Shown here piece after piece: positions 9,897 through 28,786 of a DNA stretch of 34,384 bases. The DNA comes from a virus. The stretch's first letter is position 1; each line of letters begins with the position of its first letter. Under the pieces are notes generated by a model that worked only from the letters and a program-made list of their open reading frames with translations, searched no databases and was not told the origin of the DNA. The stretch covers positions 1 to 34,384 of IMG/VR virus record IMGVR_UViG_3300007871_000068. The stretch is one strand, 5' to 3'. The position numbers were made by a program, and so were the translations under genes.

Positions 9897-9900
9897 GACA

Positions 9901-14120: not shown

Positions 14121-14189
14121 CCAGTGCCCCATCTACAACACCTCTTTCCCGGCCCTACAAGGGGTCATACAGCGGACTATAAGCCCACC

Positions 14190-14468: not shown

Positions 14469-14484
14469 AGGAGAGATAGATAAG

Positions 14485-15423: not shown

Positions 15424-15425
15424 TT

Positions 15426-15581: not shown

Positions 15582-15595
15582 ACACCCGACAAGAC

Positions 15596-15630: not shown

Positions 15631-15635
15631 CCAAT

Positions 15636-15908
15636 TCAGCCGTGGATGGACAGCATCGCTAGGGCTATTATCTCGGGGTCTGTAAGTTGCTCCACGAAAT
15701 CCTGGTCGAATATACCAGTGTCCAGAGACATATAGCCTGTATCATCTTGAATAAGAGCGGCTAGGCCCCCAGGGGTGTCTTGTATCTCTACAAACCTAAA
15801 GCAGTAGTCTGGCTGGTCTGTTTGTTTGACTACCCAGTACGTCTCGCGCTGCAGATCCGTGCCTCCACAAGTGCGGAAGTAGGGGTCTCTAGTAGGCCTC
15901 GAAGACAT
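15636..15908 (-). CDS. beta-barrel-like mini-protein, outlying member of the LxLLG-tail family, 90 aa
   Basis: Last gene of the minus-strand unit. The middle (ETYWVVKQ...YCFRFVEIQ) and end (QLTDPEIIALAML) follow the pattern of the tandem array at 24286-26198: aromatic plus Trp, V-rich strand, a Gly turn, then D-P-E and L-x-M-L. It has no downstream gene, and the Gly of the LLG motif is replaced (MLSIHG). That fits the idea that the Gly codon serves as a ribosome-binding site elsewhere. It overlaps the previous gene by 20 bases. Confidence 0.6.
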   Translation of the reverse strand: MSSRPTRDPYFRTCGGTDLQRETYWVVKQTDQPDYCFRFVEIQDTPGGLAALIQDDTGYMSLDTGIFDQDFVEQLTDPEIIALAMLSIHG

Positions 15909-16395
15909 CTCGCTTAGGGAAGTAAATGATATGGTCGGTTTCAGTGTCGCCCTCGAAGGTAAAGACAGAGAGTTCGATATTCTCTTTGCGTGGGTCGTGG
16001 CCCTCGTTCCGGGCTTCGCTCAGCCAAGCAGCCATAATCCAAGGGGCAGGCACATTAGCCTCGTGGACAAGCAGAAAGCAGGTGTTCACAGAGCACGTAG
16101 ACTCCGCCCAACCGTCCATGTCGGCAACCGCGCGCATACCTGCGTCCTCGTACCAGTTACAAAGCTTTGTGCCTGAGCGAAATGGAGCTTTGTCAACTTT
16201 TCCTACTACAATAATAGGTTCAGTGACCACCACAATGTTCTCCTCCAACACCGGAGCATTAGGCACAGCAGGTCCAATCTCCGCTGTGGGTACAGGATCC
16301 GGGAACGCAGGCCCCACTTGGTTAGCCTTGTAGACAATAAAGCCTACTAGTGCGATGCAAACCATGCCTGCTATTACTTGTTTCTTATTATCCAT
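15889..16395 (-). CDS. membrane-anchored periplasmic protein, 168 aa
   Basis: Start at 16395 (MDNKKQVIAGMV) is chosen because it overlaps the previous stop by 8 bases (ATGGATAA) and has AAGGA upstream; longer readings lie inside that gene. Residues 6-23 form one transmembrane helix. A Pro/Val linker (26-65) leads to a periplasmic domain with several Cys (KLCNWYED, STCSVNTCF) that may be disulfide-linked. No family recognised; an envelope role is likely. Confidence 0.65.
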   Translation of the reverse strand: MDNKKQVIAGMVCIALVGFIVYKANQVGPAFPDPVPTAEIGPAVPNAPVLEENIVVVTEPIIVVGKVDKAPFRSGTKLCNWYEDAGMRAVADMDGWAESTCSVNTCFLLVHEANVPAPWIMAAWLSEARNEGHDPRKENIELSVFTFEGDTETDHIIYFPKRDVFEAY

Positions 16396-16819
16396 TTTCG
16401 TCGTCCTTCTCCATAATCTCTGTGTCATCGTCCCAAGAGACAGTTTCCTCTTGTTCAAGTTGTTTACCTCTCCAGTTGTCATAAGGTGCGCCTTGCACAA
16501 TCTCGTGTTGAATAAAGGCGGCGGCCTTCATGTCTTGGAGCATCATTTCTAGTTCGGTGATGAGTTCATCAAGGGTTTCTCCCATAGGAACCTCGGGGTC
16601 AGTGTAACCAAGCCCTGGGTACTCCTCGCAGACGTGGTAGAGCGTTTGCCCACCAGCCTTGACCACAAGGGGCGCATAGCGCCAATGAAACTCCTCTTCT
16701 CCCTCTTCCGTGATTACTTCTTTAGTCTTGTCCATCCTCTTATAATCCTTACTCAGAAACCAGCGCAGTGCGTGCATCCAAAATGGGTGGGGCAAATGCG
16801 GTGGGTGCCAATTCTTCAT
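16388..16819 (-). CDS. hypothetical acidic protein, 143 aa
   Basis: Starts in an ATGA overlap with the upstream gene. The N-terminus is rich in His, Pro and Trp (KNWHPPHLPHPFW). The middle carries a beta-like segment (PLVVKAGGQTLYHVCEEYPG) and a helix (LDELITELEMMLQDM), and the C-terminus is very acidic (DDDTEIMEKDDENG). No recognised domain. Confidence 0.6.
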   Translation of the reverse strand: MKNWHPPHLPHPFWMHALRWFLSKDYKRMDKTKEVITEEGEEEFHWRYAPLVVKAGGQTLYHVCEEYPGLGYTDPEVPMGETLDELITELEMMLQDMKAAAFIQHEIVQGAPYDNWRGKQLEQEETVSWDDDTEIMEKDDENG

Positions 16820-17307
16820 ATAACTTCTAACATCAGCAAACCAATCACTTCTTGAATATCACCATGATCGTGCAACTCCGCAAGGGGCTCTAGCCTCTTA
16901 TAGAAGATTTGTCGCTTCATATGCGCGTTATCCGCTCGGTGCATGAGGTCTACGAACCAGGCATCAGCCCACCATTGGGTCTTAGGCTTGATCTCGTACT
17001 GGAGATACTCAACGCTGGTGTATGCCTGCATGAGCCCAATGGCATGTCCCACCTTCCTGCGTTCTAAAGCTTTAGCAATCCTGGTGTCCACAAACCGCTT
17101 ACCAGACTTCTCTAGCTGGTTCCAAATAGCTATTGCGGAGTCACAGTGAACATCAACGCTGTCGATCTGTCTCTCGATAGCAGCTAGCTCCTTCTTGCAC
17201 TTAATGGAGCGAGCCTCAGCTTTGATAATGCTGGACTTCTTGTACTGGGCGAGCTGTCGAAGCTCGCTCTTTACATCCTGTCGCCATTTCTTCCAAATAC
17301 GTGCCAT
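16816..17307 (-). CDS. helical protein with the conserved C-terminal domain of 1400-1846 and 17889-18431, 163 aa
   Basis: The start at 17307 overlaps the stop of a 49-aa gene (TAATG) and has AGGAG four bases upstream; a longer reading would cover that gene. Residues 1-65 are basic coiled coil. Residues about 75-163 align with the other two paralogues at AKALERR, IGL...T, W.DAW, R..FY..L and the tail EVIGLLML. Conserved Cys of the others (CGL) is replaced by Ile-Gly here. Function unknown. Confidence 0.65.
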   Translation of the reverse strand: MARIWKKWRQDVKSELRQLAQYKKSSIIKAEARSIKCKKELAAIERQIDSVDVHCDSAIAIWNQLEKSGKRFVDTRIAKALERRKVGHAIGLMQAYTSVEYLQYEIKPKTQWWADAWFVDLMHRADNAHMKRQIFYKRLEPLAELHDHGDIQEVIGLLMLEVI

Positions 17308-17456
17308 TAGCTCCTCAAAAGTAGTGCTCTCTCTACTTGCTCCAGCAATATGCGCATCGTCACACACTTGTCAATGTATTCTGTCTTACCAGAATGGGAG
17401 ATTCTTGCCTTCCACTGTCCATCCCTAGTCTTGTATACATGTATATCAGCGTTCAT
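17307..17456 (-). CDS. small beta-hairpin/helix protein, 49 aa
   Basis: A 49-codon frame is linked to both neighbours by TAATG junctions. The sequence starts MNADIHVYKTRDGQWKARIS and then a helix (MRILLEQVERALLLRS). The pattern of three strands followed by a helix resembles AP2-like or other small nucleic-acid-binding folds, but no match is claimed. Confidence 0.65.
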   Translation of the reverse strand: MNADIHVYKTRDGQWKARISHSGKTEYIDKCVTMRILLEQVERALLLRS

Positions 17457-17887
17457 TAGTGTAGTCCCTCGGTAGCCGGTTCATAAGGTGTGAAGTCTGT
17501 GATTAGGTCGCCCAAGGTCAGGTCTTGCGTAGAGCCACCAGGCACCGTGAGAGTCACCATTGGCTCCCAACCCTCTCCGTGGAGTCTTGGAAAAACGTGT
17601 ACAATGTAACAAGCAGACGGATCGGGGTCATCCTTGAAGCGCCACTCTGCGGTGCCAAACAACTGCTCCAGCTTCTTACACACCAGGTCAGGAAGATTGA
17701 TAACTGTAGGGGCCTCTGTGGGTACAGTCTCCACCGGCTTGCGCCTGTTGAAGAAAGCTTTGAAACGCTGCCACCGGGTCGCAGTTGTTTGTTCCACTGC
17801 ATCCGCAAGGAAGCCGTCCAGGTCTATATCGAAGGCTTCGCTGCCATCATCTGGGATAAACACGAAGCGTCCTTTGATTCCATGCAT
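17456..17887 (-). CDS. hypothetical protein, 143 aa
   Basis: Start at 17887 is preferred because GGAGAG lies 8 bases upstream, across the end of the preceding gene. The protein opens with a beta segment (GIKGRFVFIPDDGS). It then has an amphipathic basic helix (RWQRFKAFFNRRKP) and a domain rich in short strands (YIVHVFPRLHGEGWEPMVTLTVPGG split here). No signal peptide and no known motif. Confidence 0.6.
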   Translation of the reverse strand: MHGIKGRFVFIPDDGSEAFDIDLDGFLADAVEQTTATRWQRFKAFFNRRKPVETVPTEAPTVINLPDLVCKKLEQLFGTAEWRFKDDPDPSACYIVHVFPRLHGEGWEPMVTLTVPGGSTQDLTLGDLITDFTPYEPATEGLH

Positions 17888-17888
17888 G

Positions 17889-18431
17889 TTATTGTCTCTC
17901 CAAGATGAGTAGCCCAGCTTCTGATTGAATGCTCTCGGGGTCATCTTTGTATTGCGCTATGTTGTCGTAGAACACTTTTCTCTTTTGTGCGGAGAAGCCA
18001 GCATCTTTCATGCCCTTGACCATATCTCCTACCCAGGAGGGAGCCCAATGAGCGTCGAGTAGCTCCACTTTGTCCACTCGACATAGGAGCTTGGTCTTCA
18101 CAATGAGGATACCACACGTCTCCTGAAGGTCCCGTGCTATCAAAGCTTTAGCAGTCTTGCCATCGAGCCTCTTGTAGCCCTTCTTGGCCATATTGAACAT
18201 ACGCTTGTTAGCGAGGGTGTTCAGCTTGTCCAAGGTATCCGCCTTCTCGTTGAAGTCATCAGCCTGTGCTTGGTGGCGTGCTGCCTTCTGTCGGAAGTAT
18301 TCCTTGCGAAGCTGTACGTCCTTCATCCCAAACACGTCTGGTAGGTTGGGCGGGAAGCTCCTCTTCTTAGCAGTTCGCATTGGTGCCCCATGCGAGTTGA
18401 CCACCCCATAAGGATCTGAATCATACGCCAT
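17889..18431 (-). CDS. helical protein with conserved C-terminal domain and LLIL tail, 180 aa
   Basis: The start at 18431 has AAGGA at a usable distance and overlaps the HTH-gene stop by 11 bases. Residues 1-85 are basic with a coiled coil (KEYFRQKAARHQAQADDFN). Residues about 92-180 match the proteins at 1400-1846 and 16816-17307: TAKALIARDLQETCGI, KTKLL, a W..SWV motif, R..FYDNI and SEAGLLIL. GGAG of the tail codons provides the Shine-Dalgarno of the next gene. Unknown role, possibly DNA or RNA binding. Confidence 0.65.
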   Translation of the reverse strand: MAYDSDPYGVVNSHGAPMRTAKKRSFPPNLPDVFGMKDVQLRKEYFRQKAARHQAQADDFNEKADTLDKLNTLANKRMFNMAKKGYKRLDGKTAKALIARDLQETCGILIVKTKLLCRVDKVELLDAHWAPSWVGDMVKGMKDAGFSAQKRKVFYDNIAQYKDDPESIQSEAGLLILERQ

Positions 18432-19044
18432 CGTCGTCATCCTTATCTTCCCAGTCAGCATCTTCTATGTCAGCCTCAAGCTGGGGGGCCTCGGGTTCCT
18501 CTAGCTTGTTTAGGGAGCCGTGAATCACGCCACGCAATCGCATCTGCTTTTCCTTCTCGTCCATGTTGTCAAACTCCTCAAAGAAGGGAGCGACCTTGAG
18601 CGTGTGATCGTGCTCGATGGCCTTACGGGCGAGGATGCCAAGATCCATCATTAACTTATTGCTCTTATCACGAGAGGTCATAACCGTATCTAAAGCTTTA
18701 TTAGCCGCTGCTGGGTTCGTGTCCTTATGCTTGAAGAACATCTCCCACGCACGCTGCTCTACCTCGGAATAGAGGGAGACAGTCTCACCTACTACCTGCT
18801 CCTGATCAATGGTGCGACCGATGGCGGCATACACTTCACGGATCTTCTTTAGCTGCGCATTGATATAGGGCTGGCTAACCTCCTCCAACTGGGCAATCGC
18901 CGTCTGGGTGAGCCCCCGAAGTTTGTAGTTCACGATCCTGCGCTGTCGCTCGTTGAGTTCGGCGGGCGGGTCTTTTATCATGTCGTCCATAGCCGCTGCT
19001 AAGTCGGTAGGATTCCTGATTAGTCTGTCATCCTTCTTTGTCAT
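18421..19044 (-). CDS. helix-turn-helix protein, possible terminase small subunit, 207 aa
   Basis: Shine-Dalgarno AGAGGA and an ATG overlapping the upstream gene by 17 bases. Residues 29-68 form a sigma/LuxR-type HTH (ELNERQRRIVNYKLRGLTQ, then AIAQLEEVSQPYINAQLKKI). Residues 85-150 are helical with a TPR-like 'ANKALDTVM...LMMDLGILA' stretch, the HTH-plus-helical layout of many terminase small subunits. The C-terminus is acidic. It could also be a transcription regulator. It lies on the opposite strand to TerL, unlike the usual pairing. Confidence 0.5.
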   Translation of the reverse strand: MTKKDDRLIRNPTDLAAAMDDMIKDPPAELNERQRRIVNYKLRGLTQTAIAQLEEVSQPYINAQLKKIREVYAAIGRTIDQEQVVGETVSLYSEVEQRAWEMFFKHKDTNPAAANKALDTVMTSRDKSNKLMMDLGILARKAIEHDHTLKVAPFFEEFDNMDEKEKQMRLRGVIHGSLNKLEEPEAPQLEADIEDADWEDKDDDDGV

Positions 19045-19228
19045 CAGTTTCCTCTTCGTGGGTACAGCTGCTTTTGTCAGTGCAGATCGGACACTCGAAT
19101 ACGAGACAATCTACTTCCTCTAGCTGCTCGTCCGTATCGTCCAGGTCGGGCTTCTTTGTGCCAGGGCTATGAGCGCCTTGGTGCCTACTCCACGCTCCCA
19201 CTGCCTGTGCTGACCTACGTTTCGTCAT
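19028..19228 (-). CDS. small acidic Cys-containing protein, 66 aa, first gene behind the internal promoter
   Basis: ATG at 19228 is preferred because AGGGAGAG lies 5 bases upstream; an in-frame ATG at 19273 would start at the first base or two of the mRNA (leaderless) and add 15 residues. The C-terminal part, ECPICTDKSSCTHEE, looks like a small zinc site. The rest is charged and probably disordered. Confidence 0.6.
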   Translation of the reverse strand: MTKRRSAQAVGAWSRHQGAHSPGTKKPDLDDTDEQLEEVDCLVFECPICTDKSSCTHEEETDDKEG

Positions 19229-19281
19229 AAGTTCTCTCCCTATTGTTTCCTGTAATTCGTCCCATTTACTCATGTTATAGC

Positions 19282-19310
19282 ATTATAAGTACTATAGTAC
19301 TGGGAGTCAA
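19282..19310 (-). promoter_or_regulatory. strong sigma70-type promoter with internal palindrome
   Basis: On the minus strand TTGACT (19310-19305), a 17-base spacer and a perfect TATAAT (19287-19282). The spacer holds the perfect 14-bp palindrome AGTACTATAGTACT (19288-19301), a likely operator. The -35 box includes the TGA stop of the upstream 45-aa gene. Transcription would begin near 19275. Confidence 0.85.
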
Positions 19311-19444
19311 CTCTTCTTTCCTCTCCACCACTCAGCTTTTTTCTGTAACTCTACTAAATCTTCTGCGTGTGCGGCCAGCAGGGTGAGGGCATCAGCGATA
19401 CGCTTCACGTCTTTAGCCAAATCTGTTAGTGCTGGTATTTTCAT
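19307..19444 (-). CDS. small amphipathic helical protein, 45 aa
   Basis: The frame begins in an ATGA overlap with the lipoprotein stop. The peptide is a single predicted amphipathic helix with Leu/Ile/Ala heptads (LTDLAKDVKRIADALTLLAA), ending in a basic WWRGKKS. It may form a coiled coil. Its stop lies within the -35 box of the downstream promoter. Confidence 0.65.
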   Translation of the reverse strand: MKIPALTDLAKDVKRIADALTLLAAHAEDLVELQKKAEWWRGKKS

Positions 19445-19806
19445 GGGAACCTCTTGTGTGTGTCGGTTTCAGGGCTGTACTCGCGGTACCAGTTGTCCAC
19501 GCAGGTGATCTTGTCTGTTGGTGACGTGGTACAGTCGTATTGAACGGTGCGAACCCAGATGCCGTCGAGCCTCGGGTTAGCGCCATGCTCTACAATGCTT
19601 CGTAGGTAGGTGTCCATGGTATCATAGGTGGTGTACTTCGACTGCACAGTTACAAGGCGGCCAGTACACTCGATATCTAGCGTGCCCATCCACGCCTCCT
19701 GGTAAATGGCCTGGGCCTCGGGCGATAGCGCGCAACGCCCGATGAAAGCCGTGCGGTCACACCCAACTAGGAAAACCAGGGCAATCAATGTAATAAGTGT
19801 TTTCAT
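19441..19806 (-). CDS. lipoprotein with Asp at +2, 121 aa
   Basis: Start at 19806 has AAGGA 7 bases upstream; longer readings cover the preceding small gene. Residues 1-16 are a type II signal peptide with lipobox LVGC (Cys16). Asp17 at +2 is the classic inner-membrane retention signal in enterobacteria. The mature part carries four more Cys (GRC, IEC, YDC, ITC) that could form two disulfides. Function unknown; an envelope-modifying or exclusion role is possible. Confidence 0.7.
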   Translation of the reverse strand: MKTLITLIALVFLVGCDRTAFIGRCALSPEAQAIYQEAWMGTLDIECTGRLVTVQSKYTTYDTMDTYLRSIVEHGANPRLDGIWVRTVQYDCTTSPTDKITCVDNWYREYSPETDTHKRFP

Positions 19807-19807
19807 G

Positions 19808-19915
19808 TTACTTTCCTTCTTTCTTCTTCTTCTTAGTCTTGGCGAATACACACGTATCAGTGCATACACACTTCTTACCGCTGACGCTACAGATAAACTC
19901 TTTCTTCTCACTCAT
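19808..19915 (-). CDS. Cys-rich, Lys-rich mini-protein, 35 aa
   Basis: Starts in an ATGA overlap with the upstream gene and ends one base before the lipoprotein ATG. It holds four Cys in a C-x6-C-x-C-x3-C arrangement (from residue 9) and a Lys-rich tail (AKTKKKKKEGK). It is probably a zinc-binding peptide that may touch nucleic acid. Confidence 0.65.
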   Translation of the reverse strand: MSEKKEFICSVSGKKCVCTDTCVFAKTKKKKKEGK

Positions 19916-20136
19916 ACGTTTCCTAGCAACTCCAGAGCGTAATCGGGGTGGTTCTGACACTCCTCGCACCATTCGGTGAACGGGTGTTCATCTCTGTCTA
20001 TATCCCCAGTCACGTACCGGCGCGGGTTAGGCACTCTAAAATGTGTAGGCAAGTCTGCGCAGGGGACATCCTCTTTGCCGCAGAAGTTGCGAGCAGCAAC
20101 CCCCTTACCCGAATTAATGTGCAGTATGTGGCTCAT
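19912..20136 (-). CDS. zinc-binding mini-protein with LELLG tail, 74 aa
   Basis: Start at 20136 sits in an ATGA overlap with the HerA-like gene. The architecture is shared with 28553-28786, 26539-26787, 26784-27056 and 23084-23512: a strand with His (ILHIN), a Cys-Gly (NFCGKE), about 35 residues, CxxC (CEEC) and a tail HPDYALELLG. Three or four Cys plus His would bind one zinc. The tail codons contain AGGAAA, usable as Shine-Dalgarno of the next gene. Function unknown. Confidence 0.7.
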   Translation of the reverse strand: MSHILHINSGKGVAARNFCGKEDVPCADLPTHFRVPNPRRYVTGDIDRDEHPFTEWCEECQNHPDYALELLGNV

Positions 20137-21521
20137 AGCAGCCCCGTCAGGTAGGCACCCGCAAGCGCAACCACCAGCAAGCCCCAACCTAAGCCAATCA
20201 TTAGGCTCGTGCGAAGAGGATTGCCTAGCTCGACAATCTCATCAGAGATAAGATACTCTTCCTCAATGAGTTGCTCTGTGGCTTCAACCATTGGCTCAGG
20301 GTCAAAGATGTCTACGTTCTCTGTAACAATGGTTTCCGTGTCCTCTTCTTCTACTCGGCCCCGAGCCTTCTCTGCCTCGATGAAGTTAGCTCCGTTGCCG
20401 TATCCCAGGTTGAAGCTGTCGTATAGGTCCACGATTTCCATTGGAACCATCGGGCCTCTAAGCTCACAGTCCACGTTCCTGCTCATAAACATGTTTCCAG
20501 CATCGTGCCTCGCCATCACAAACTCTCGTGGCTTCAGGCCAGCAATGTCTACATCAGCCGACACACCCGCAGCAACCATACCTGCGATCACTCGCTTTCG
20601 GTCCTTATCAGCAGTCATGCGGCCCACGAACCAAGTAGCACAGTTGCTCATGGCCTTGTAGTCGATGTCCACAGGGTTCTGGGTGGCGAGAATCAGGCCG
20701 ACACCAAACGCTCGTGCTTGCTTCAGCAGGAGCATGATGGGTTCCTTCGTGGAAGGGTTAGCTGGGGCCGGTGGGAGCAGGCCAACGCACTCGTCGATTG
20801 CCAGCACCAGTCGAAGCGCATCGCTTCCCTTCTGTGCCTTGGTCCAGCGAAGCACTTCGTTCAGCAGGAAGCTGATAGCGAAGGCTTGTTCTCCCTCGTG
20901 AAGATGTGCGACAGAGTAAACCGTGATTCCCTTGTGAGTCACCAGGTTGTCAATGTCCAAGTCCATCCCGCGTCTCCAAGCCTTGAAGGTGTTAGAGACA
21001 AGCAGGTTGTTCAGCTTGCGAGCCAGGCTCAAGCGAGCCTTAGCAGGGAAAGCCGAATCCAGGGACAGCCCACCAAGCGTGTGAAGGTTGGGCTTGTGAC
21101 AGGTCTGAACCAGGTTCTCCAGTGTGCGCTCTTCCAAAGAGTCCAAAACCGCAGACAGGTATGGGTGCGAGCTACCAGAGATAGGGTCTGGATCCTCTCC
21201 GACCATCGAAAGCAACGCAGCTACAACGCTTGAAGCTTTATCAGGATCCTCCAGGTCTGCCAGAACGTTCACTGCCTCGCCGTGAGTAGCTCCAGGGGTC
21301 AGGCATCGAACCTGCCACTTCACCTCTTGAAGTGCCACGTTCACCATATCTCCCTTGATATCCACCAGGATAACGGGAACCTCTGCGTGGTAGAGTTCTT
21401 CTACCATGCCCACCAGGAGTCCGGTCTTACCAGAGCCCGTGGAACCAAAGACAGCCGCGTGTGTGGTCAAGGCGTCATGGTTCAGTGTGAGAACGTCGTT
21501 GTGTGTGTTTCCTAATTCCAT
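20133..21521 (-). CDS. HerA/FtsK-like P-loop ATPase with C-terminal membrane anchor, 462 aa
   Basis: Start at 21521 (MELGNTHND) follows a strong but slightly distant AAGGAGGA. Walker A is GSTGSGKT (26-33), followed by VDIKGD (53-58), Walker B AIDE (241-244) and the sensor-type ATQNPVD (279-285). This order fits HerA/DUF853-type DNA translocases. Residues about 438-460 (MIGLGWGLLVVALAGAYLTG) form a transmembrane helix. The C-terminal anchor is unusual for HerA and suggests DNA handling at the inner membrane. Packaging is already served by TerL, so DNA entry, segregation or defence are alternatives. Confidence 0.8.
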   Translation of the reverse strand: MELGNTHNDVLTLNHDALTTHAAVFGSTGSGKTGLLVGMVEELYHAEVPVILVDIKGDMVNVALQEVKWQVRCLTPGATHGEAVNVLADLEDPDKASSVVAALLSMVGEDPDPISGSSHPYLSAVLDSLEERTLENLVQTCHKPNLHTLGGLSLDSAFPAKARLSLARKLNNLLVSNTFKAWRRGMDLDIDNLVTHKGITVYSVAHLHEGEQAFAISFLLNEVLRWTKAQKGSDALRLVLAIDECVGLLPPAPANPSTKEPIMLLLKQARAFGVGLILATQNPVDIDYKAMSNCATWFVGRMTADKDRKRVIAGMVAAGVSADVDIAGLKPREFVMARHDAGNMFMSRNVDCELRGPMVPMEIVDLYDSFNLGYGNGANFIEAEKARGRVEEEDTETIVTENVDIFDPEPMVEATEQLIEEEYLISDEIVELGNPLRTSLMIGLGWGLLVVALAGAYLTGLL

Positions 21522-21540
21522 GTTGTTACTCTCTTCCTCC

Positions 21541-22095
21541 TTAGATATGACAGTCAATGACTGTGATAAGTGTGTCTGGGTGAAGGTTGTCCATCTGTGC
21601 TCGAAAGGCTCGTTCCCATTCTTTCTCTCCCGCGTTGCCGTGGGACGTGCCAAACCATCCCATTGACCCTATTTCGTGCCACCCGTTGTCGTTTAGTACT
21701 GCGAATGTAGGCTCTAACTTAGCCAAGTCAACGTCCTTAGCTGGGGACGAGTCCGCATGATTGCCGTCCTTTAGTGGGAGATAGTCCCCCCATCGTCCGC
21801 CTTCTTCGTACCAATCCCATTTGGCGTTGGTGTTACAGGTGCGTCCGTACCGACCGTCCTGCTCCTCGTAGCCCCAATAGCCTTCTGCGTACTCCTGAAT
21901 GTTTTTGTAGTCCTCCTCGCTACCTCCTCTACCTAGAACAGTCAAGGGATAGTCCTTCCAAGCAGCCTCGACCTCCTCTGTCTCGTCTACAAACTCCAGA
22001 AACTCAGGGGGCACAGTATCCATATTGTTTTCCTGATAGGGTTCCATTCGCTCGTCAACGTTGTCTCCGATTACTAGTACGCAGAAGTGGCTCAT
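21541..22095 (-). CDS. conserved phage protein of the MSHFxVLVIG type, 184 aa
   Basis: Start ATG at 22095 with GGAGGAGAG upstream. The opening MSHFCVLVIG and the later KWDWYEEGGRW motif (about residues 90-100) match from memory a protein family found in many phages and some bacteria. It is annotated only as hypothetical. It is acidic and rich in aromatic residues, with no catalytic triad visible. It lies 19 bases upstream of the HerA-like ATPase and is probably co-transcribed with it. Confidence 0.7.
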   Translation of the reverse strand: MSHFCVLVIGDNVDERMEPYQENNMDTVPPEFLEFVDETEEVEAAWKDYPLTVLGRGGSEEDYKNIQEYAEGYWGYEEQDGRYGRTCNTNAKWDWYEEGGRWGDYLPLKDGNHADSSPAKDVDLAKLEPTFAVLNDNGWHEIGSMGWFGTSHGNAGEKEWERAFRAQMDNLHPDTLITVIDCHI

Positions 22096-22096
22096 A

Positions 22097-22533: not shown

Positions 22534-22685
22534 TTCTCTTCCTCGTCTTTCGGTTCGTTTAGGTTCAGTCTCTTTACAAAGTCCTCGGCCTCACCTTGGG
22601 TGGTGAAGCTCACCATTGACGCCATGCGTTGGGTTCGCTTGTCAAAAACGAAGTATGGCCCGTCCCCATGTACCTCGTAAGGCAC
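22530..22685 (-). CDS. hypothetical protein, 51 aa
   Basis: GTG start at 22685, 2 bases after the upstream stop, with GAGG six bases before it; the frame could extend further upstream. It has a short beta-rich domain (YEVHGDGPYFVFDKRTQRMA) and an acidic tail. The layout fits a small adaptor protein but no family is recognised. Confidence 0.55.
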   Translation of the reverse strand: MPYEVHGDGPYFVFDKRTQRMASMVSFTTQGEAEDFVKRLNLNEPKDEEEK

Positions 22686-22687
22686 GA

Positions 22688-22933
22688 CTACCTCAGTGCT
22701 CCGAAGCCAATAGGTGCGTCGGGGTCAGCCTCGGGGTTGACCTGCTCGGGCAGAATATCAACGTTTTCGGGGCAATTCAGCTCTTGGCCAAGTGCCTCGA
22801 ACGACGTTCCGTCTGGTAGCGTGATAGTAAAGCTGTTTCCAAACTCCACCACATCCTTTGCGACGAAGTGGTAGACCTCTCCGTTCTCTGGGTCAGTCCA
22901 CGTAAACTTGTCGCCTGCGTTTAGGTCACTCAT
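22688..22933 (-). CDS. small SH3-like beta protein, 81 aa
   Basis: AAGGAGA lies upstream and the start overlaps the previous stop by 8 bases (ATGAGTGA). The N-terminal half alternates strands and Gly turns (AGDKFTWTDPENGEVYHFV, then a LPDGTSFEAL segment), like the array proteins at 24286-26198. The tail (ADPDAPIGFGAL) is only vaguely like their tail motif, so membership is uncertain. Confidence 0.6.
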   Translation of the reverse strand: MSDLNAGDKFTWTDPENGEVYHFVAKDVVEFGNSFTITLPDGTSFEALGQELNCPENVDILPEQVNPEADPDAPIGFGALR

Positions 22934-23087
22934 TTGCGGTCTCCTTGTCTATGGTGAACATCACCAGTTTTCTAAGTGTTTCTTGAAAGTTCTCTTTAGT
23001 GTGACGGATACCTTGATACATTCCCTCGGGAATGTCAACCGTGACCTTCACTTCATACTTCTTATCCTCGAATACAAATCGTCTCAC
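22926..23087 (-). CDS. hypothetical protein, 53 aa
   Basis: GTG start in a GTGA overlap with the upstream gene and an 8-base ATGAGTGA overlap at the stop. The N-terminal part alternates beta strands (FVFEDKKYEVKVTVDIP) and the C-terminal half is helical (NFQETLRKLVMF). Possibly a small ribbon-helix type DNA-binding protein; not recognised. Confidence 0.6.
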   Translation of the reverse strand: MRRFVFEDKKYEVKVTVDIPEGMYQGIRHTKENFQETLRKLVMFTIDKETANE

Positions 23088-23512
23088 TTCTTACCTGTCC
23101 TCTCTAATACATCTTTCTCTAAGGCAGCATAGTCCGCTGGGCTAAGTATCATCTCAAAGGTTTTAGCCTCTAAAGCGAACCTAATCTTGTCTGTTGCGTC
23201 CTTTACCTCTCTAATAACGTTACTTATGTTGGGCTGGCTGCTACTTAGCCTTCCTGTTTGCGTTCCTACAGAGCTGATACCATCAAAGATGTTACGTACA
23301 TCATCTCCGACGCTACCAAGCAAGAACAAGGTCCAGTCGTCGCTCGCCAGGCAATCCTCACATACTGGTTTACCAGAGTGCTCTACATCAGCCGCAAACA
23401 CCCAGTTGTGCCAGCCTTTCTCACCCACGCGCTTGCCACAGAACGCGGTCCTTGGGGTGGCCCAGTAGTCCTCAGAAGGGGCAATTGCATTCACTATGCA
23501 CCTATGATCCAA
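23084..23512 (-). CDS. zinc-binding mini-domain with internal LFLLG motif plus helical extension, 142 aa
   Basis: TTG start at 23512 has AGAGGAGA five bases upstream; GTG at 23494 is the alternative. Residues 20-70 show the five-member zinc family pattern: TAFCG, about 25 residues, VCEDCLASDDWTLFLLG. Here the motif is internal and followed by about 75 helical residues (VIREVKDATDKIRFALEAKT). This member shows that the LxLLG motif is not tied to a gene end. Confidence 0.65.
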   Translation of the reverse strand: MDHRCIVNAIAPSEDYWATPRTAFCGKRVGEKGWHNWVFAADVEHSGKPVCEDCLASDDWTLFLLGSVGDDVRNIFDGISSVGTQTGRLSSSQPNISNVIREVKDATDKIRFALEAKTFEMILSPADYAALEKDVLERTGKK

Positions 23513-23678
23513 CTGCTCTCCTCTCTAAGAACGCTTCCCTTGTTTTGTAAAGTATTTCTGGGCTCCTGCAATGGTAGTCGGCCTCAAGCCTCCCACATGT
23601 GTAGCAGTAGATGGAGTTGTCCTCCATCACAACCATGCGATTGCCCAACGGCTCGTCGCAGTGGTCACACTTACTCAT
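23502..23678 (-). CDS. zinc-ribbon protein, 58 aa
   Basis: Start at 23678 lies in an 8-base ATGAGTAA overlap with the upstream gene. It has CxxC near the N-terminus (CDHC) and CYTC at about 24-27, a DnaK-suppressor or LIM-like four-Cys ribbon, then a helical basic end. It is probably nucleic-acid or protein binding. Confidence 0.7.
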   Translation of the reverse strand: MSKCDHCDEPLGNRMVVMEDNSIYCYTCGRLEADYHCRSPEILYKTREAFLERRAVGS

Positions 23679-23889
23679 CAGTCGTCTCCTGAATGACGGT
23701 CTGCATCTCAAACGCGCGGATGTCTGGACACTCGAAGGCACAAAGCGTGTTGCTGCTGTACTCATCCATATCAGCGTCCTGAAACGCCAGTTGTACGGCG
23801 GCCTCGATGTTGTCAGCCTCATACATACGTGAGTTCATGTCAAAGTCTCCCTCGGGGAAGACTACATAGGTTTTTGTTTCTCCACTCAT
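23671..23889 (-). CDS. hypothetical protein, 72 aa
   Basis: Start at 23889 (MSGETKTYVVFPEGDF) in an ATGA overlap with the upstream gene. Pattern of strand, turn, helix (NIEAAVQLAFQDADMDEY) and strand resembles the small phage proteins that modulate host enzymes, but there is no specific match. Acidic; two Cys (LCAFEC). Confidence 0.6.
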   Translation of the reverse strand: MSGETKTYVVFPEGDFDMNSRMYEADNIEAAVQLAFQDADMDEYSSNTLCAFECPDIRAFEMQTVIQETTDE

Positions 23890-24068
23890 GTCAGCTCCTC
23901 TACTTCCTCTTCCTCGAACCATTCGTTGTACTCAGTGAGTAGATCCTCGTCGTCCATAGCATCTAGAAAACCTGTAGTGCTTTCATAGTAAAACTCTATG
24001 AGAGCATCCATGTCCAGAGATTCCGTCATGTCCTGGGCCAGCTTCTCTATAAGCTCGTCCCTTGTCAC
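23886..24068 (-). CDS. acidic helical protein, 60 aa
   Basis: GTG start in a GTGA overlap. Very acidic with helices (MTRDELIEKLAQDM; WFEEEEVEELT). DNA-mimic-type composition, although length and charge alone do not prove that. No family recognised. Confidence 0.6.
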   Translation of the reverse strand: MTRDELIEKLAQDMTESLDMDALIEFYYESTTGFLDAMDDEDLLTEYNEWFEEEEVEELT

Positions 24069-24256
24069 GACTTCACCTGTTCCTTAGCTAAAGCTTTAGC
24101 TAGGCGGGCACGCTGCTTCTTAGCACCGATGCCTTTGCCAAGCCTACGGTCTAACAGGGCGATCTTGTCCAGGGTGGACAGGCTGTCATACGCTTCTTGC
24201 CGCTCTTTCGCCTGGACGAAGCGGGTTCCATCTCTATCAGTTCGTTTCTTACTCAT
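24065..24256 (-). CDS. basic helical protein, 63 aa
   Basis: Start at 24256 has AAAGG 9 bases upstream; ATG at 24262 is closer to it and also possible. Strongly basic (KKRTDRDGTR; GKGIGAKKQRARLAKALAKEQ), suggestive of nucleic-acid binding. It lies immediately downstream of the array, with 29 bases between them. Confidence 0.6.
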   Translation of the reverse strand: MSKKRTDRDGTRFVQAKERQEAYDSLSTLDKIALLDRRLGKGIGAKKQRARLAKALAKEQVKS

Positions 24257-24285
24257 CTTCATATACCTTTCGGTTCCAATGTTGT

Positions 24286-24567
24286 TTAGTCTTGTTCGGC
24301 TAAGGCTATTAGCCCTAGCTCCTCTTCTTGTGTTACTCGTTCAAAATATATAGTAAATAGCTTTTTGTCTACACAGTCCCAGTTGTCATAGCTCCCTGTC
24401 GCGACCAGCCCATATTCGATTAGGGTGGGGCGGACTGTCGGCAACCTATCAAACACTTTTACAAAGGTTCCTACGGGGATCCTCATGTGAAGCTCTCTAT
24501 AGGTGTTCCCTTCGTTTTCGCAGGGTTCTACTCTCCTTCTCTTGTAATATGCGTCTCGTGCTACCAT
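24286..24567 (-). CDS. array member 8: beta-barrel-like mini-protein, 93 aa
   Basis: ATG at 24567 follows GGAGG by 7 bases, and the junction reads TTGACAATG. The N-terminus is longer than in the others; the conserved part begins near residue 32 (VGTFVKVFDR). The end (KKLFTIYFERVTQEEELGL, then IALAEQD) resembles array member 24842-25039 (CTIYHPVSEEELPLQLLG). Its tail is diverged: LIALA instead of LLG. It is the last member of the tandem array. Confidence 0.65.
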   Translation of the reverse strand: MVARDAYYKRRRVEPCENEGNTYRELHMRIPVGTFVKVFDRLPTVRPTLIEYGLVATGSYDNWDCVDKKLFTIYFERVTQEEELGLIALAEQD

Positions 24568-24569
24568 TG

Positions 24570-24845
24570 TCAAGCCTCCTGCAACAGCAAAAAGCCTATT
24601 TCGTCTTGGTCTGTGATTAGGTCGTAGTTCTCCATCAATACATCTATATGTTCCTTCCAGTAGGTAATGTAGTCTGGGTCAGGTGCTCCACATCGACGCA
24701 TCTCCGCCTGCACCAACCTCGTTCCAGCATAGCTGGAGCACCTCGTCCAGCCCGCATCTGCACCACTGTACTTCCTTACGTCATACACGTAATACGTGCT
24801 TGTGTTGTTCTTCAACCTCCAAAACTGTCCAACTTCTAGTTTCAT
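24570..24845 (-). CDS. array member 7: beta-barrel-like mini-protein, 91 aa
   Basis: Starts MKLEVGQFWRL, identical to 25042-25302 over 11 residues, followed by the shared STYYVY segment and WKEHIDVL...ITD.DEIG(F/L)LLLQ.A. The two are recent duplicates that differ in the middle. Codons CAG-GAG-G at the tail give the next gene's Shine-Dalgarno. ATGA overlap at its start. Predicted fold: small SH3-like barrel with a helical insertion. Confidence 0.7.
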   Translation of the reverse strand: MKLEVGQFWRLKNNTSTYYVYDVRKYSGADAGWTRCSSYAGTRLVQAEMRRCGAPDPDYITYWKEHIDVLMENYDLITDQDEIGFLLLQEA

Positions 24846-25039
24846 ACGCCCCCCAATAGTTGAAGAGGCAATTCTTCTTCCGACACTGGATGGTAGATGG
24901 TACAGAACACTGATAGTAGTTCATACATCTTATCTCCTTCCGGTAAAGTCTGTATGAGAACCTCGTCGGGGTGATGGCAGTCTATCACTCGGCATAGGCC
25001 CACATGATCTTCCTTCCAATAGGTTCCAAGCTCTGGCAT
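24842..25039 (-). CDS. array member 6: beta-barrel-like mini-protein, 65 aa
   Basis: ATG at 25039 follows a TTGACAATG junction identical to the one after the other MKLEVGQFWRL copy. Pattern: LGTYWKED, LCRVIDC, VLIQTLPEGDKMY and TIYHPVSEEELPLQLLG. Shortest clear member and close to the array consensus. Tail codons TTGGGGGGC overlap its successor's ribosome-binding site. Confidence 0.7.
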   Translation of the reverse strand: MPELGTYWKEDHVGLCRVIDCHHPDEVLIQTLPEGDKMYELLSVFCTIYHPVSEEELPLQLLGGV

Positions 25040-25041
25040 TG

Positions 25042-25302
25042 TCAAGCTCTCTGAAGGAGTAATAGGCCAATTTCATCCTTATCAGTGATTTGATAATAAT
25101 GCTCCTCTAATACGTCTATGTGCTCCTTCCAGTCCTGTATGTAGTCGGCGTCGTGCGGTCCTATCCTTTCTAGCCTAGCTGCTATGTGTTTTTTACCATA
25201 CTCCGACGCTTCCCAAGTGTTGACCCAGCGGTCAATAGCATACACGTAATATGTGCTTGAGTCGTTATTCAACCTCCAAAACTGTCCTACTTCTAGTTTC
25301 AT
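25042..25302 (-). CDS. array member 5: beta-barrel-like mini-protein, 86 aa
   Basis: MKLEVGQFWRLNNDSSTYYVY marks it as a duplicate of 24570-24845 (about half of residues identical by eye). The tail is DKDEIGLLLLQRA. ATGA start overlap with the upstream gene, preceded by the shared TTAGGAGCGGC. Confidence 0.7.
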   Translation of the reverse strand: MKLEVGQFWRLNNDSSTYYVYAIDRWVNTWEASEYGKKHIAARLERIGPHDADYIQDWKEHIDVLEEHYYQITDKDEIGLLLLQRA

Positions 25303-25529
25303 GCCGCTCCTAACAAGTGAAGGGGTATATCCTCCTCATCCACTGGGTCATAAAGGTTTGAGAATAGGTGTATCCATTCTAGATACTCCTCACCAGTATC
25401 AAGAGACACTAGCTCAATCTCTTTCCTGTCAAATCCGACGTGCAAAACCTGACAAAGGTTTCCGTCTCTGTCCAACCAATACGATCCATGCGCCGGGGGC
25501 GGCTCTTGCCAGTCATCTATACTCATCAT
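25299..25529 (-). CDS. array member 4: beta-barrel-like mini-protein, 76 aa
   Basis: Two adjacent ATGs (25529 and 25526) are possible starts. Motifs: HGSYWLDRDG, CQVLHV, IELVSLDTGEEYLEW, then LYDPVDEEDIPLHLLGAA. The final codons and following start read TTAGGAGCGGCATGA, the same 15 bases as at the junction upstream. Confidence 0.7.
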   Translation of the reverse strand: MMSIDDWQEPPPAHGSYWLDRDGNLCQVLHVGFDRKEIELVSLDTGEEYLEWIHLFSNLYDPVDEEDIPLHLLGAA

Positions 25530-25759
25530 GCCGCTCCTAACAGTGCCAGTGGCACTTCTTCAGGGTCTATTTGCTTTAGACGGTTAGCTCTCATCTCGTT
25601 GTAGTTGCAGATCAGCTCAGTACCCTCATTCAGCCTGAGGAGTCTAAACTTAGGGAAGGTGGTTCCTCCGATGCTAGGCCACGTTTCTGTAACCTCATAC
25701 ACGTAAACCTCTCCCTGCCAGAACGATCCCAGGGGCACTGTTTCATATAAGTAGTTCAT
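25526..25759 (-). CDS. array member 3: beta-barrel-like mini-protein, 77 aa
   Basis: TGATG junction with GGGAG seven bases before the ATG. Motifs: LGSFWQGEVYVYEV, KFRLLRLNEGTEL, then IDPEEVPLALLGAA, the cleanest form of the tail. The tail DNA CTGTTAGGAGCGGCATGA encodes both the tail and the next start. Confidence 0.7.
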   Translation of the reverse strand: MNYLYETVPLGSFWQGEVYVYEVTETWPSIGGTTFPKFRLLRLNEGTELICNYNEMRANRLKQIDPEEVPLALLGAA

Positions 25760-25965
25760 CACACTTCTCCCAACAGTGCCAGGGGCACATCTTCAGGGTC
25801 TACAAGTTCTGCCTTTATTGCCAGGTCTGCTGCGTATGTCCAGAAGGAAAAACCTGTATCTAGACGACGCACTAACCCACCACACTTGTCCTCCGTTAGG
25901 ACTACTTGAAAAAGGACTCGATTGTGGAGTCTTTCTCTCCAAAGTTGTCCTTTGACTAGTTCCAT
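25759..25965 (-). CDS. array member 2: beta-barrel-like mini-protein, 68 aa
   Basis: TGATG junction, GGGAG seven bases upstream of ATG; an in-frame GTG one codon earlier exists. Motifs: KGQLWRERLHNR, LFQVV, GGLVRRLDTGFSFW, then LVDPEDVPLALLGEV. The tail is nearly identical to that of the next member although the middles differ. Confidence 0.7.
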   Translation of the reverse strand: MELVKGQLWRERLHNRVLFQVVLTEDKCGGLVRRLDTGFSFWTYAADLAIKAELVDPEDVPLALLGEV

Positions 25966-26198
25966 CACAAATCTCCCAACAGTATCATGCTCATCTCGCT
26001 CTCGTACACAACCTGCATACCATAGAACAGCAGATCCGACATTTCCAACGTGTACTTCTCTCCTGACTGAAGGTTTACGAGCCTGACCTTACGATCCTTC
26101 AGCTTCTCGACAACCTGATAGTACAGGGTTAGGTGGGGTGATAGATTTGGACGACGGTAATACGTACCAACTTCCATGCTTAGGTTAGGGTAACTCAT
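25965..26198 (-). CDS. array member 1: beta-barrel-like mini-protein, 77 aa
   Basis: Start uncertain: 26198 has GGGGG 8 bases upstream, while ATG at 26177 would align best with the other members (MEVGTYYRR). Motifs: VGTYYRRP, LYYQVVEKL, KVRLVNLQSGEKY, then YESEMSMILLGDL. First and most diverged-tail member; it overlaps the upstream gene's end by 14 bases. Confidence 0.6.
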   Translation of the reverse strand: MSYPNLSMEVGTYYRRPNLSPHLTLYYQVVEKLKDRKVRLVNLQSGEKYTLEMSDLLFYGMQVVYESEMSMILLGDL

Positions 26199-26538
26199 CT
26201 TCCTCATCCCCCGTGAATACAAGGGTACTGCCCGAAGCCTCAGCCATAAAGATTTCTGGGGCTATGAAATGCAGGTCTTGTTCGACGGCCACATCATCCA
26301 GGTGCTCAGTAATCGCTGGGCGTGCTTCCCGCAGGCTATCCATTAGGTCCGAGGCCTCCTTTGCTCGCTTGGATAGCGCGCGGAAAGCTGTCATAGCCCC
26401 TCGCGACTCTTCCTCCCTTCCTTCTTTGCGCGCTTCACGCGCTTGGGTCATAGCCTTGTCTGCAAAGAACAAGAAGCGGTGAAACTCACGCCGCACCACT
26501 TCATAATCTGTCATTGTATCTTGTTCACCGAAAAGCAT
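26185..26538 (-). CDS. helical coiled-coil protein, 117 aa
   Basis: GGTGA lies 6 bases before the ATG, which directly follows the upstream stop. Residues 10-80 are an alanine- and arginine-rich helix (DKAMTQAREARKEGREEE). The end is acidic (GDEEDELP). Not an array member. No recognised family. Confidence 0.6.
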   Translation of the reverse strand: MLFGEQDTMTDYEVVRREFHRFLFFADKAMTQAREARKEGREEESRGAMTAFRALSKRAKEASDLMDSLREARPAITEHLDDVAVEQDLHFIAPEIFMAEASGSTLVFTGDEEDELP

Positions 26539-26787
26539 TTACTTCACCGCTTTCATAGTTTGTTGTGCGTGAGTTCGCACACGTCCAGCGTGTTCCACGT
26601 CTACCTTATCAGATAGTAGGTCAAGGCCTAGCTCATCAGACGCTAGGCAGTCAGGACAGAATCCCTCATCCTGTGCTCCATCCACCAACCAAAAGTGTAG
26701 GTGTAGAGCATAGTCAAAGGTGCTGCCGCAGTAAGTCTGAACATCATTGTAGGGATGGTCAGGCTTGGTAATGTGGTAGATAGTCAT
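26539..26787 (-). CDS. zinc-binding mini-protein with internal LDLLS motif, 82 aa
   Basis: Start at 26787 in an ATGA overlap. Pattern: IYHIT, then TYCGS, then CPDCLASDELGLDLLS, followed by about 20 helical residues. Close to the neighbour 26784-27056 in CP(D/E)CLAS(D/S)ELGLD, so the pair is a local duplication. Three Cys and a His could bind zinc. Confidence 0.7.
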   Translation of the reverse strand: MTIYHITKPDHPYNDVQTYCGSTFDYALHLHFWLVDGAQDEGFCPDCLASDELGLDLLSDKVDVEHAGRVRTHAQQTMKAVK

Positions 26788-27056
26788 AGACTTAGAATAT
26801 CCAATCCGAGTTCCGACGACGCCAAGCACTCAGGACAAATGTCCTCCTCGTACTCCGCTCCCATCTTTACATACCAACCGAAGGTATACATAGAATGTTG
26901 GTACGCGCCGCCGAAACTCTCAAAGGTTTCTCCACAATACGAGTAGTCGTAAGTGGTCTGGTGGTTCTTTCCTCCTTCATCAGTCCATTTGTATCGCGTA
27001 TGTCTCTTACTGTTAGTAAGATGAATACGTATTCTCAGGGGTTTCCGGTACGACAT
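26784..27056 (-). CDS. zinc-binding mini-protein with LDILSL C-terminus, 90 aa
   Basis: ATG at 27056 with GGTGA upstream; it overlaps the end of the preceding gene by 44 bases, longer than elsewhere. Pattern: IRIHLTN, YSYCGETF, then CPECLASSELGLDILSL at the very end. Extra residues lie between the strand and the Cys. Paralogue of 26539-26787. Confidence 0.65.
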   Translation of the reverse strand: MSYRKPLRIRIHLTNSKRHTRYKWTDEGGKNHQTTYDYSYCGETFESFGGAYQHSMYTFGWYVKMGAEYEEDICPECLASSELGLDILSL

Positions 27057-27897
27057 ACTCACCAAACCTCACTCCTACAAGTTTCTTGCTGTTCTTACGG
27101 TAGGTGAAGGTAACGCGCTCGCCGTCCTTGTCACGAACATCGTCCTTGTGAAGCCTCATACCTTCCTTGCTAGTAGCCTGCATACCGACGAACGCAACCT
27201 TAGTCATGTTTCGGATGTGACCTGCCGTTTCGTCATGGCCTCTACGACCGTGCTTGCCGCACGGCTCGCACCATCCACCATAGCTACCAGTAACGCGAAA
27301 GGCATTACCTCCGTCGTCCCAATCGTAGCGCACGACCCAATCACCGTCCACACGATCCGCAATCGCTGTGAATGACGTTGGTACATGTTTACGAGAAGTA
27401 GAGTCATACCTTGTGCCTGTCACAAGGTTGAAGGTGTAGCGTCCGTTATCCTCTTGACGGATAGCAAATGCCGTGTTTCGCTCGCCAATGTGACGGACCA
27501 TATACTCACGCAGCTTGCGTGGGATCATGCCTTCTATAGACTTAGCAGCCTCTTTAGCCTCAGCGTCCTGCTTAGCTCTCATACGCAGGCTCTTCTTAGC
27601 CTCCACTTTTTGCTTGAGTGGGCCACCGATGTTACACAGAACAGTGTTCTGATAGACCGATGGTAGGCTGTAGGGGTTCGTCTCTCCGTCCACATGCTTG
27701 ATAAAGCAATCCATGTATCCGAAACAAGTTTTCATGGGGTCAGTACCCAATAGGATTAGCCCGTCCGTCTCTTCCTTATCGGCAGAGCAGGTGGCAAACA
27801 CTGACCCTAAGGTTCCATCCTCGTTCACTTTGACGGTGATCTGATGGTCGTCTCCAAACACACAGTCAATTCTTTGTCTTATTTCTGCATATTCCAT
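27013..27897 (-). CDS. hypothetical protein, 294 aa, with CxxC zinc-like motif
   Basis: GGAG precedes the ATG. The N-terminal half has short strands and Cys (IDCVF, TCSAD, CFGYMDCF). The middle is a basic Ala/Lys coiled coil (KSLRMRAKQDAEAKEAAK), then a beta-rich domain with WCEPCGKHGRRGH at about 210-222, suggesting a zinc site. No enzyme family is recognised. It overlaps the next gene by 44 bases. Confidence 0.65.
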   Translation of the reverse strand: MEYAEIRQRIDCVFGDDHQITVKVNEDGTLGSVFATCSADKEETDGLILLGTDPMKTCFGYMDCFIKHVDGETNPYSLPSVYQNTVLCNIGGPLKQKVEAKKSLRMRAKQDAEAKEAAKSIEGMIPRKLREYMVRHIGERNTAFAIRQEDNGRYTFNLVTGTRYDSTSRKHVPTSFTAIADRVDGDWVVRYDWDDGGNAFRVTGSYGGWCEPCGKHGRRGHDETAGHIRNMTKVAFVGMQATSKEGMRLHKDDVRDKDGERVTFTYRKNSKKLVGVRFGEYVVPETPENTYSSY

Positions 27898-27924
27898 CTT
27901 CGCTTCACTCCTGGTTTGTTGGTT

Positions 27925-28146
27925 TTATACTTCTGAAAGAGCCTCTAGGCCCTCTTCATACGCACTGTAAATAACATTTGATCTTAGGATTTCCAGAATA
28001 CGATTGTATTCGATTTTACGATGTGCTAGCACACCCTTGGCAAACACCAAGCCATCTTCCTCGGCGTGTAGGCTAGGAGGATCTTCATACAGAGCCTCCC
28101 TGATGTCTCCAGCCGCTACTTCATACGAGATTATGAGTCTAATCAT
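27925..28146 (-). CDS. hypothetical protein, 73 aa
   Basis: ATGA start overlap with the upstream gene. A short strand (MIRLIISYEV) is followed by acidic segments and an amphipathic helix (YNRILEILRSNVIYSAYEEG). The end EEGLEALSEV is only loosely like the LxLLG tail. No function recognised. Confidence 0.6.
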   Translation of the reverse strand: MIRLIISYEVAAGDIREALYEDPPSLHAEEDGLVFAKGVLAHRKIEYNRILEILRSNVIYSAYEEGLEALSEV

Positions 28147-28553
28147 AGGTAGTATCCCTCCTCACCAGCGGTCGCAAGCAGCTTCAGCGCACAATCGCCG
28201 CAGTTGTTTGGCCGACGCTTCTTAGTGACCTTGATCCGCTCGCCTTCGATGGTATGCAGCGGAACCCTGTTCTCCTTGCTCCACATGTTGCCCTTGGCAC
28301 ACACATGTTTGTTGCGCATAGTAAAGTAGGTTTCGCCCTTCTCTCGAAAGACGGCATAGCCTAATCCATACTCATCTGCACACTGGTTCATACGATCCCT
28401 AGTCGTAAGGGTATCGTAGCCGCCAGTACGCAGGGTTACATATCCCTTTTCCCACGTAACAACGTCGGTCCAGTGATACCTGCAAACGCTCTCTCCGTCA
28501 GGATTGAGCACAACTTTGGTAGCACGCTTGGTGCTCCACCATTTCTTAGTCAT
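28143..28553 (-). CDS. hypothetical basic protein with Cys pairs, 136 aa
   Basis: TAATG start overlap. Lys/Arg-rich N-terminus (MTKKWWSTKRATK), strands in the middle, and a C-terminal CGDCALKLLATAGE. Its CxxC plus ALKLL resembles the zinc-family end without the acidic tail. Extra single Cys (VCRYHW, HVC) may complete the zinc site. Confidence 0.6.
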   Translation of the reverse strand: MTKKWWSTKRATKVVLNPDGESVCRYHWTDVVTWEKGYVTLRTGGYDTLTTRDRMNQCADEYGLGYAVFREKGETYFTMRNKHVCAKGNMWSKENRVPLHTIEGERIKVTKKRRPNNCGDCALKLLATAGEEGYYL

Positions 28554-28786
28554 TACGACGCTCCCAGTAACAGTAGTGGATAATCAGGGTGTGAAAAACA
28601 TTTAGGGCACGGGACCTCTGAAGCAGGGTCAACCGGGTCCGTTGCTAGGTCGCCAATAAATACGTTGGCATCCATTTGTCGTTGTATAGGATCCAGTCCA
28701 CACAGCGTCAGGGCGGCCCCCTTATTCCAGTCAACCAAACTGGTATAAGGGGACAGATGCAACACTTGCATCTCCGCCTTCGCCAT
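28553..28786 (-). CDS. zinc-binding mini-protein with LLLLG tail, 77 aa
   Basis: GAGG upstream. Pattern: VLHLSPY, TLCGLD, VFIGDLATDP, then CPKCFSHPDYPLLLLGAS. It pairs especially well with 19912-20136 (TGDIDRDE, CEEC, HPDYALELLG), although the two lie 8 kb apart. Tail codons CTGGGAGCG form the Shine-Dalgarno of the next gene. Confidence 0.7.
   Translation of the reverse strand: MAKAEMQVLHLSPYTSLVDWNKGAALTLCGLDPIQRQMDANVFIGDLATDPVDPASEVPCPKCFSHPDYPLLLLGAS

Follow-up and report, generated by a model that had tools for sequence, protein, structure and literature searches.

The bacterial beta-clamp-binding motif, QL[SD]LF or in its longer form QLxLxL, begins with Gln. SsrA-type degrons are short, C-terminal and hydrophobic, and hydrophobic C-terminal ends are in general a common kind of degron. 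In phage T4, the clamp-binding C-termini are interchangeable and bind gp45 (PMC2988020). Here we describe a short, mostly C-terminal peptide that is common to 17 small proteins of an uncultured phage. A description of such a motif was not found in the literature.

The sequence analysed, termed here the window, is the whole 34,384-base IMG/VR virus record of this phage. Its rightward half (genes to about 15.5 kb) contains the terminase large subunit, which is 25-29% identical to those of phages of about 90 kb, Aeromonas phage ST4 among them. From 34.4 to 15.6 kb, the leftward half consists mostly of small, densely packed genes with frequent overlaps. All records of this lineage are fragments. 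One of them, G001 (38,991 bases), matches window positions 2109-19273 at about 99% identity and carries upstream a replication module with a DnaB-like helicase, a DnaG-like primase, a family-A polymerase, a gp32-like SSB and RecA. G002 is a more distant relative, with a DNA identity of about 67-75% in its main matched stretches. Position 19273 is the point at which the 99% identity to G001 stops, the last 950 bases of G001 having no match to the window, and it is also the end of the main matched stretches of G002. Other minus-strand ORFs include a HerA/TrwB-like ATPase with a hydrophobic stretch at its end (20133-21653; Pfam DUF87 and HerA_C) and a trypsin-family serine protease with a lipoprotein-like start (33652-34359; Pfam PF00089, E 7.5e-17), which is unusual for a phage. 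An ATPase matching PHROG 1297 (30539-31708) adjoins an ORF matching PHROG 1314 (28789-30444) that bears HEAWH and a VWA-like DTSGSM..FTDG pattern. Scans with the HerA-like and the MoxR-like ATPase found no relatives.

The motif reads x-x-[D/E]-h-[G/P/A/S/T]-L-x-[L/M/I]-L-[G/Q/E/S] in the 17 proteins, and examples of the tails are EEDIPLHLLGAA, SSELGLDILSL and ERESEIGLIMLGMYA. Column 3 is D or E (V or I in two tails), column 4 is hydrophobic and column 5 is always small (G, P, A, S or T). These are followed by L (M, F), any residue, and L, M, I or A in columns 6-8; column 9 is always L, and column 10 is G, Q, E, S or A. The carriers comprise eight barrel paralogues (24286-26222), five putative zinc proteins, three helical proteins and 15636 (Table 1; genes are named by their lower coordinate). 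Zinc binding is predicted from conserved Cys and His residues only. An earlier note on this DNA had listed about 17 small proteins of different architectures with a common tail, and the genes and tails it listed were recovered, with some amendments. All of the proteins carry the motif, which lies 1-3 residues from the C-terminus in 15 of them; in 23084-23512 and 26539-26829, however, a further 76 and 23 residues follow, making the motif internal. The plus-strand gene does carry the tail, but extends over 1322-1846 rather than 1400-1846. ORF 15636 belongs to the set, but as its weakest member (score 14.9).

Table 1. Window ORFs carrying the shared motif, with the motif sequence, the residues that follow it (after the hyphen) and motif codon positions.
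Feature	Coordinates	Strand	Motif (codons) and remarks
SH3-like barrel protein	25299..25529	-	EEDIPLHLLG-AA (25308-25337); AF2 mean pLDDT 85
Barrel paralogue	24842..25045	-	EEELPLQLLG-GV (24851-24880)
Barrel paralogue	25526..25762	-	PEEVPLALLG-AA (25535-25564)
Barrel paralogue	25759..25968	-	PEDVPLALLG-EV (25768-25797)
Barrel paralogue	25965..26222	-	ESEMSMILLG-DL (25974-26003)
Barrel paralogue	24570..24845	-	QDEIGFLLLQ-EA (24579-24608)
Barrel paralogue	25042..25302	-	KDEIGLLLLQ-RA (25051-25080)
Barrel paralogue	24286..24573	-	EEELGLIALA-EQD (24298-24327)
Putative Zn-binding protein (H..CG..CxxC)	28553..28786	-	HPDYPLLLLG-AS (28562-28591)
Putative Zn-binding protein	19912..20187	-	HPDYALELLG-NV (19921-19950)
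Putative Zn-binding protein	26784..27065	-	SSELGLDILS-L (26790-26819)
Putative Zn-binding protein	26539..26829	-	Internal SDELGLDLLS (26611-26640), then 23 residues
Putative Zn-binding protein	23084..23512	-	Internal SDDWTLFLLG (23315-23344), then family-A DNA polymerase-like stretch
Helical family, N-terminal CxxC..H..C	1322..1846	+	ESEIGLIMLG-MYA (1805-1834)
Helical family	17889..18461	-	QSEAGLLILE-RQ (17898-17927)
Helical family	16816..17367	-	QEVIGLLMLE-VI (16825-16854)
Weakest member, body class uncertain	15636..15908	-	PEIIALAMLS-IHG (15648-15677)

Three further minus-strand ORFs, 22688-22933, 27925-28146 and 32247-33224, have possible degenerate tails (DAPIGFGALR, AYEEGLEALSEV and QSTAGLAALNALED). 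The region 24570-25529 (-) looks as if a pair of genes had been duplicated in tandem, giving 25299/25042 and 24842/24570; the PLxLLG and LLLLQ types of tail alternate along it, and MKLEVGQFWRL is the N-terminus of the second protein of each pair. Past its internal motif, 23084-23512 (-) has TGRLSSSQPNISN and a family-A DNA polymerase-like stretch (residues 75-133). The match of this stretch to Pfam (E 3.3e-7) is below the gathering score; phmmer matches it to a polymerase I (E 3.5e-4), and its match to the lineage's own polymerase covers 16 residues only.

Whether the likeness exceeds chance was assessed with score matrices each trained on the tails of one architecture; all other predicted proteins were scanned and 200 shuffles served as the null. 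With the matrix trained on barrels, the top match was ESEIGLIMLG of 1322 (21.5 bits, compared with a 95% null maximum of 13.4), and five of the best six matches were helical or Zn tails. After 1322 came an internal stretch of 27013, two Zn tails and two helical tails; the 27013 match (EETDGLILLG, at residue 42 of 294) is probably a coincidence. Conversely, barrel tails took ranks 1-3 with the Zn-trained matrix and ranks 1-4 with the helix-trained matrix. Several of the lower cross-family matches fall individually under the 95% null maximum, and their weight lies in their number and C-terminal position. A matrix of all tails gave a C-terminal score of at least 8 bits for 18 ORFs in the window and for 0 of 923 background ORFs (drawn from 50 kb of T4, from KP8 and from further contigs, some of them overlapping); since it was trained on the window tails themselves, the independent evidence is that of the leave-one-architecture-out scans. 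The window has four copies of a strict form, E-[DE]-h-P-L-x-L-L-G-x-x-stop, compared with none expected from shuffles. The barrels (8), Zn proteins (5) and helical proteins (3) are each paralogous, which reduces the independent cases to three or four. On this comparison of sequences, a tail common to different architectures, beyond chance, is confirmed.

The earlier note had proposed comparing substitution rates of tail and body; by sequence identity, the tail is the better conserved of the two in each of the three families. Identities of tail and body are 0.45 and 0.21 for the barrels, 0.44 and 0.23 for the Zn proteins, and 0.60 and 0.29 for the helical proteins. Tail identity exceeds body identity in 27 of 28, 10 of 10 and 28 of 28 pairs, respectively (65/66 overall, the pairs being of paralogues and orthologues). 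The orthologues of 1322 and 17889 have bodies 50-59% identical but almost the same tail. The 1322 tail EIGLIMLGMY is identical in L018 and L020 but differently encoded (GAA ATC GGC CTA and GAG ATT GGT CTC), and the 17889 tail EAGLLILERQ is identical in L008; the L021 relative has REIGLILLNIYG. A relative of 16816 keeps 6 of the last 14 residues, with a body about 21% identical (35/169). Such relatives were found for 4 of the 17 tail genes, all of them on fragments of one phage lineage, and for the other 13 none were found in the collections searched. At matching residues in tails of different families, codons are shared 34, 35 and 13 times, compared with 37.7, 28.1 and 11.3 expected. A recent spread of a tail-encoding DNA segment is therefore not supported, cross-family sharing being at the level of chance. 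The conservation of the tail, its persistence through synonymous changes and this chance level of codon sharing argue that selection acts, over the long term, on the peptide; as judged from these alignments, the tail is conserved at the protein level.

Structure predictions were obtained for two of the families. The AlphaFold2 model of 25299, for which the eight paralogues served as input, has a mean pLDDT of 85.2 and a pTM of 0.72. It has strands at residues 17-19, 25-31, 37-42, 48-52 and 61-63 and a helix at 53-59, the five strands and short helix preceding the last strand that mark a small SH3-like barrel. The tail is predicted as a separate helix (65-74) past the last barrel strand, with confidence dropping at the very end. 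In a Foldseek search of BFVD the model came closest to uncharacterised and DUF1653-like proteins of phages (best E about 1e-3). The helical-family model (pLDDT 71) is a helical domain that contains a hairpin, with the tail within the last helix (158-173), and a structure search with it returned nothing significant. In the Zn proteins the motif directly follows CxxC, a position where a helix would be ordinary. An amphipathic helix was considered and rejected: the moment of the 10-mer at 100 degrees is 0.159, compared with 0.234 for shuffles.

Several explanations were weighed. The start of the next gene and the stop of the tail gene often overlap (ATGA), and the Shine-Dalgarno sequence of the next gene then lies in the tail codons, as in TTAGGAGCG over L-G-A in 25526 and CAGGAGG over Q-E-A in 24570. 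Overlap and composition alone could have produced the tail as an artefact: the Shine-Dalgarno sequence would encode the L-G-A or Q-E-A end, and leucine-rich ends are frequent. A Shine-Dalgarno core of at least 4 bases does lie within the tail codons in 9 of the 15 C-terminal cases, mostly at L-G-(A/E/D) or Q-E-A, and the overlap helps explain why column 10 is G, Q or E and why the motif lies at a fixed distance from the end, but not columns 3-9. It leaves the upstream [DE]-h-[GPAST]-L-x-L unexplained, and the tail is kept through synonymous changes, is present where there is no Shine-Dalgarno core and is internal in two genes. The cross-architecture scans and the synonymous conservation have already largely refuted an artefact, which we hardly credit. 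The main rival is an ordinary structural element: each fold would simply end in this helix, which would pack against the rest of the protein or dimerise and would have been inherited by old paralogy within families, with limited convergence of leucine-rich terminal helices accounting for the likeness between them. Old paralogy explains sharing within each family, but not between families. In favour of such a helix, the independent cases number only three or four; moreover, the earlier note had named tails that are just the last strand or helix of unrelated folds as the outcome that would count against it, and this is borne out in part, a terminal helix being predicted in both families modelled. 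Packing alone, however, is not expected to place the same tail on unrelated folds and leaves this sameness unexplained. Cross-family detection is strong, column 5 is always small and column 9 always Leu in all families, and the internal motif before extra sequence in two proteins indicates that it is not only an end effect. The small proteins of phage KP8, including three with matching SH3-like folds, lack the tail. We regard an ordinary helix as unlikely, though it is the most serious competitor.

The earlier note had also suggested a shared partner, a degradation signal or a targeting tag; a shared partner fits better than coincidence, while an ssrA-type degron is disfavoured. The reader of a turnover signal could be a protease of the host, or the phage MoxR-like ATPase (30539-31708) and VWA/HExxH protein (28789-30444) that are encoded just upstream of the tail genes. 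The hydrophobic ends are of a kind common among degrons, and the VWA-like gene, with its HEAWH, its DTSGSM..FTDG and its PHROG match, directly precedes the first tail gene. On the other hand, the last two or three residues vary (AA, GV, EV, DL, EA, RA, EQD, AS, NV, L, MYA, VI, RQ and IHG) and two copies are internal, and these were the grounds on which an ssrA-type degron was rejected. Furthermore, no C-terminal tails were found in G003, which has a VWA-like relative. In the KP8 annotation an AAA ATPase and a metallopeptidase adjoin, yet the small proteins there are without the tail; the VWA query has no match in KP8. A degradation signal seems very improbable. Somewhat less so, but still improbable, is that the partner is a sliding clamp, whether the beta clamp of the host or one of the phage that escaped detection, with the tails acting like the C-termini of T4 gp43, gp55 and gp33. 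The small-L-x-[LF]-L pattern is approximated by these T4 tails (SLDFLFG, SLDFLYEAND and TLDFLL), and a window-trained matrix of 10 columns ranks gp43, gp55 and gp33 at 2, 70 and 82 among 680 T4 ORF ends. With 8 columns, however, the ranks fall to 53, 167 and 199, so they depend on the columns used and are a lead rather than a test. The clamp domains PF02768 and PF09116 were not found in the fragments G000, G001, G002, G005 and G008, the lineage polymerase is of family A and without such a tail, and the Gln of the bacterial clamp motif is absent from all tails.

The motif was also sought outside the window. The search of other viruses proposed in the earlier note was made with the strict DNA pattern; it gave two viral matches, neither at a real gene end. 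Both lie over other genes, antisense to them or in another frame, and were judged to be chance. Among 84,980 bacterial and archaeal genomes the same pattern gave 32 matches, one per stretch, of which one is a scoring ORF end (REDFPLDLLG in L060). A protein search of phage records found no relatives for the Zn protein, the barrel or 1322; nor did a scan with the Zn alignment, or the 1322 alignment against bacterial and archaeal genomes. As far as the collections searched show, the tail seems confined to this phage lineage.

A docking tag is the reading that best suits one peptide on several architectures, long kept and close to the C-terminus. As a docking peptide, the tail would consist of acidic residues followed by h-small-L-x-L-L, predicted helical, and would give many different small proteins encoded in the leftward operon a single binding partner, for which a phage hub protein, a host protein and a sliding clamp are candidates. 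The tail would be old, having spread within families by gene duplication and reached different bodies by fusion or convergence, and the Shine-Dalgarno site of the next gene, where the two genes overlap, may have helped to shape its last residues. Against docking we count that the 10-mer is not amphipathic, its moment being below that of shuffles, that relatives were found for only four of the tail genes, that the tail may pack on its own body, and that a helix right after CxxC would be nothing unusual in the Zn proteins. That the tail binds something, and the same partner for all carriers, is what we infer; a docking tag for one common partner is in our judgement an even call. We put forward more tentatively, and rather doubt, the wider idea that one peptide tag unrelated to those described plugs structurally different small proteins into a single hub. 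If so, effectors could be swapped and duplicated freely with the socket unchanged. Many of the small accessory proteins of phages have no known function, and a tag on 17 such proteins predicts one common partner. Should docking prove true, it would show that proteins of this kind can diversify as plug-in effectors with a socket in common, an idea paralleled in T4 by three proteins and its clamp.

Among known systems, DUF1653-like and other small phage SH3-like barrel proteins share the fold of the window barrel bodies (Foldseek against BFVD), but the KP8 small proteins, the source of three of the fold matches, are unlike the window barrels in having no tail. Like SsrA-type degrons, the window tails are short, C-terminal and hydrophobic, and two end in LLGAA; unlike them, they have variable terminal residues and two internal copies. 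The alternating h-small-L-x-L spacing is common to the bacterial beta-clamp motif and the window tails. The canonical form of that motif was nevertheless rejected, as its initial Gln is found in none of the 17 tails, the aligned position being D or E in most and hydrophobic (V or I) in two. T4 gp43, gp55 and gp33 offer a candidate parallel: there a short acidic-plus-hydrophobic C-terminal epitope is common to otherwise unrelated phage proteins, as it may be in the window. The T4 tails have F where the window tails have L, M or I, and T4 has three proteins with a clamp tail, whereas the window has about 17 small proteins, a lineage polymerase without the tail and no clamp found in the five lineage fragments. 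By analogy, the best reading of the window tails would be that of a lineage-specific docking tail, comparable to the interchangeable clamp-binding C-termini of T4.
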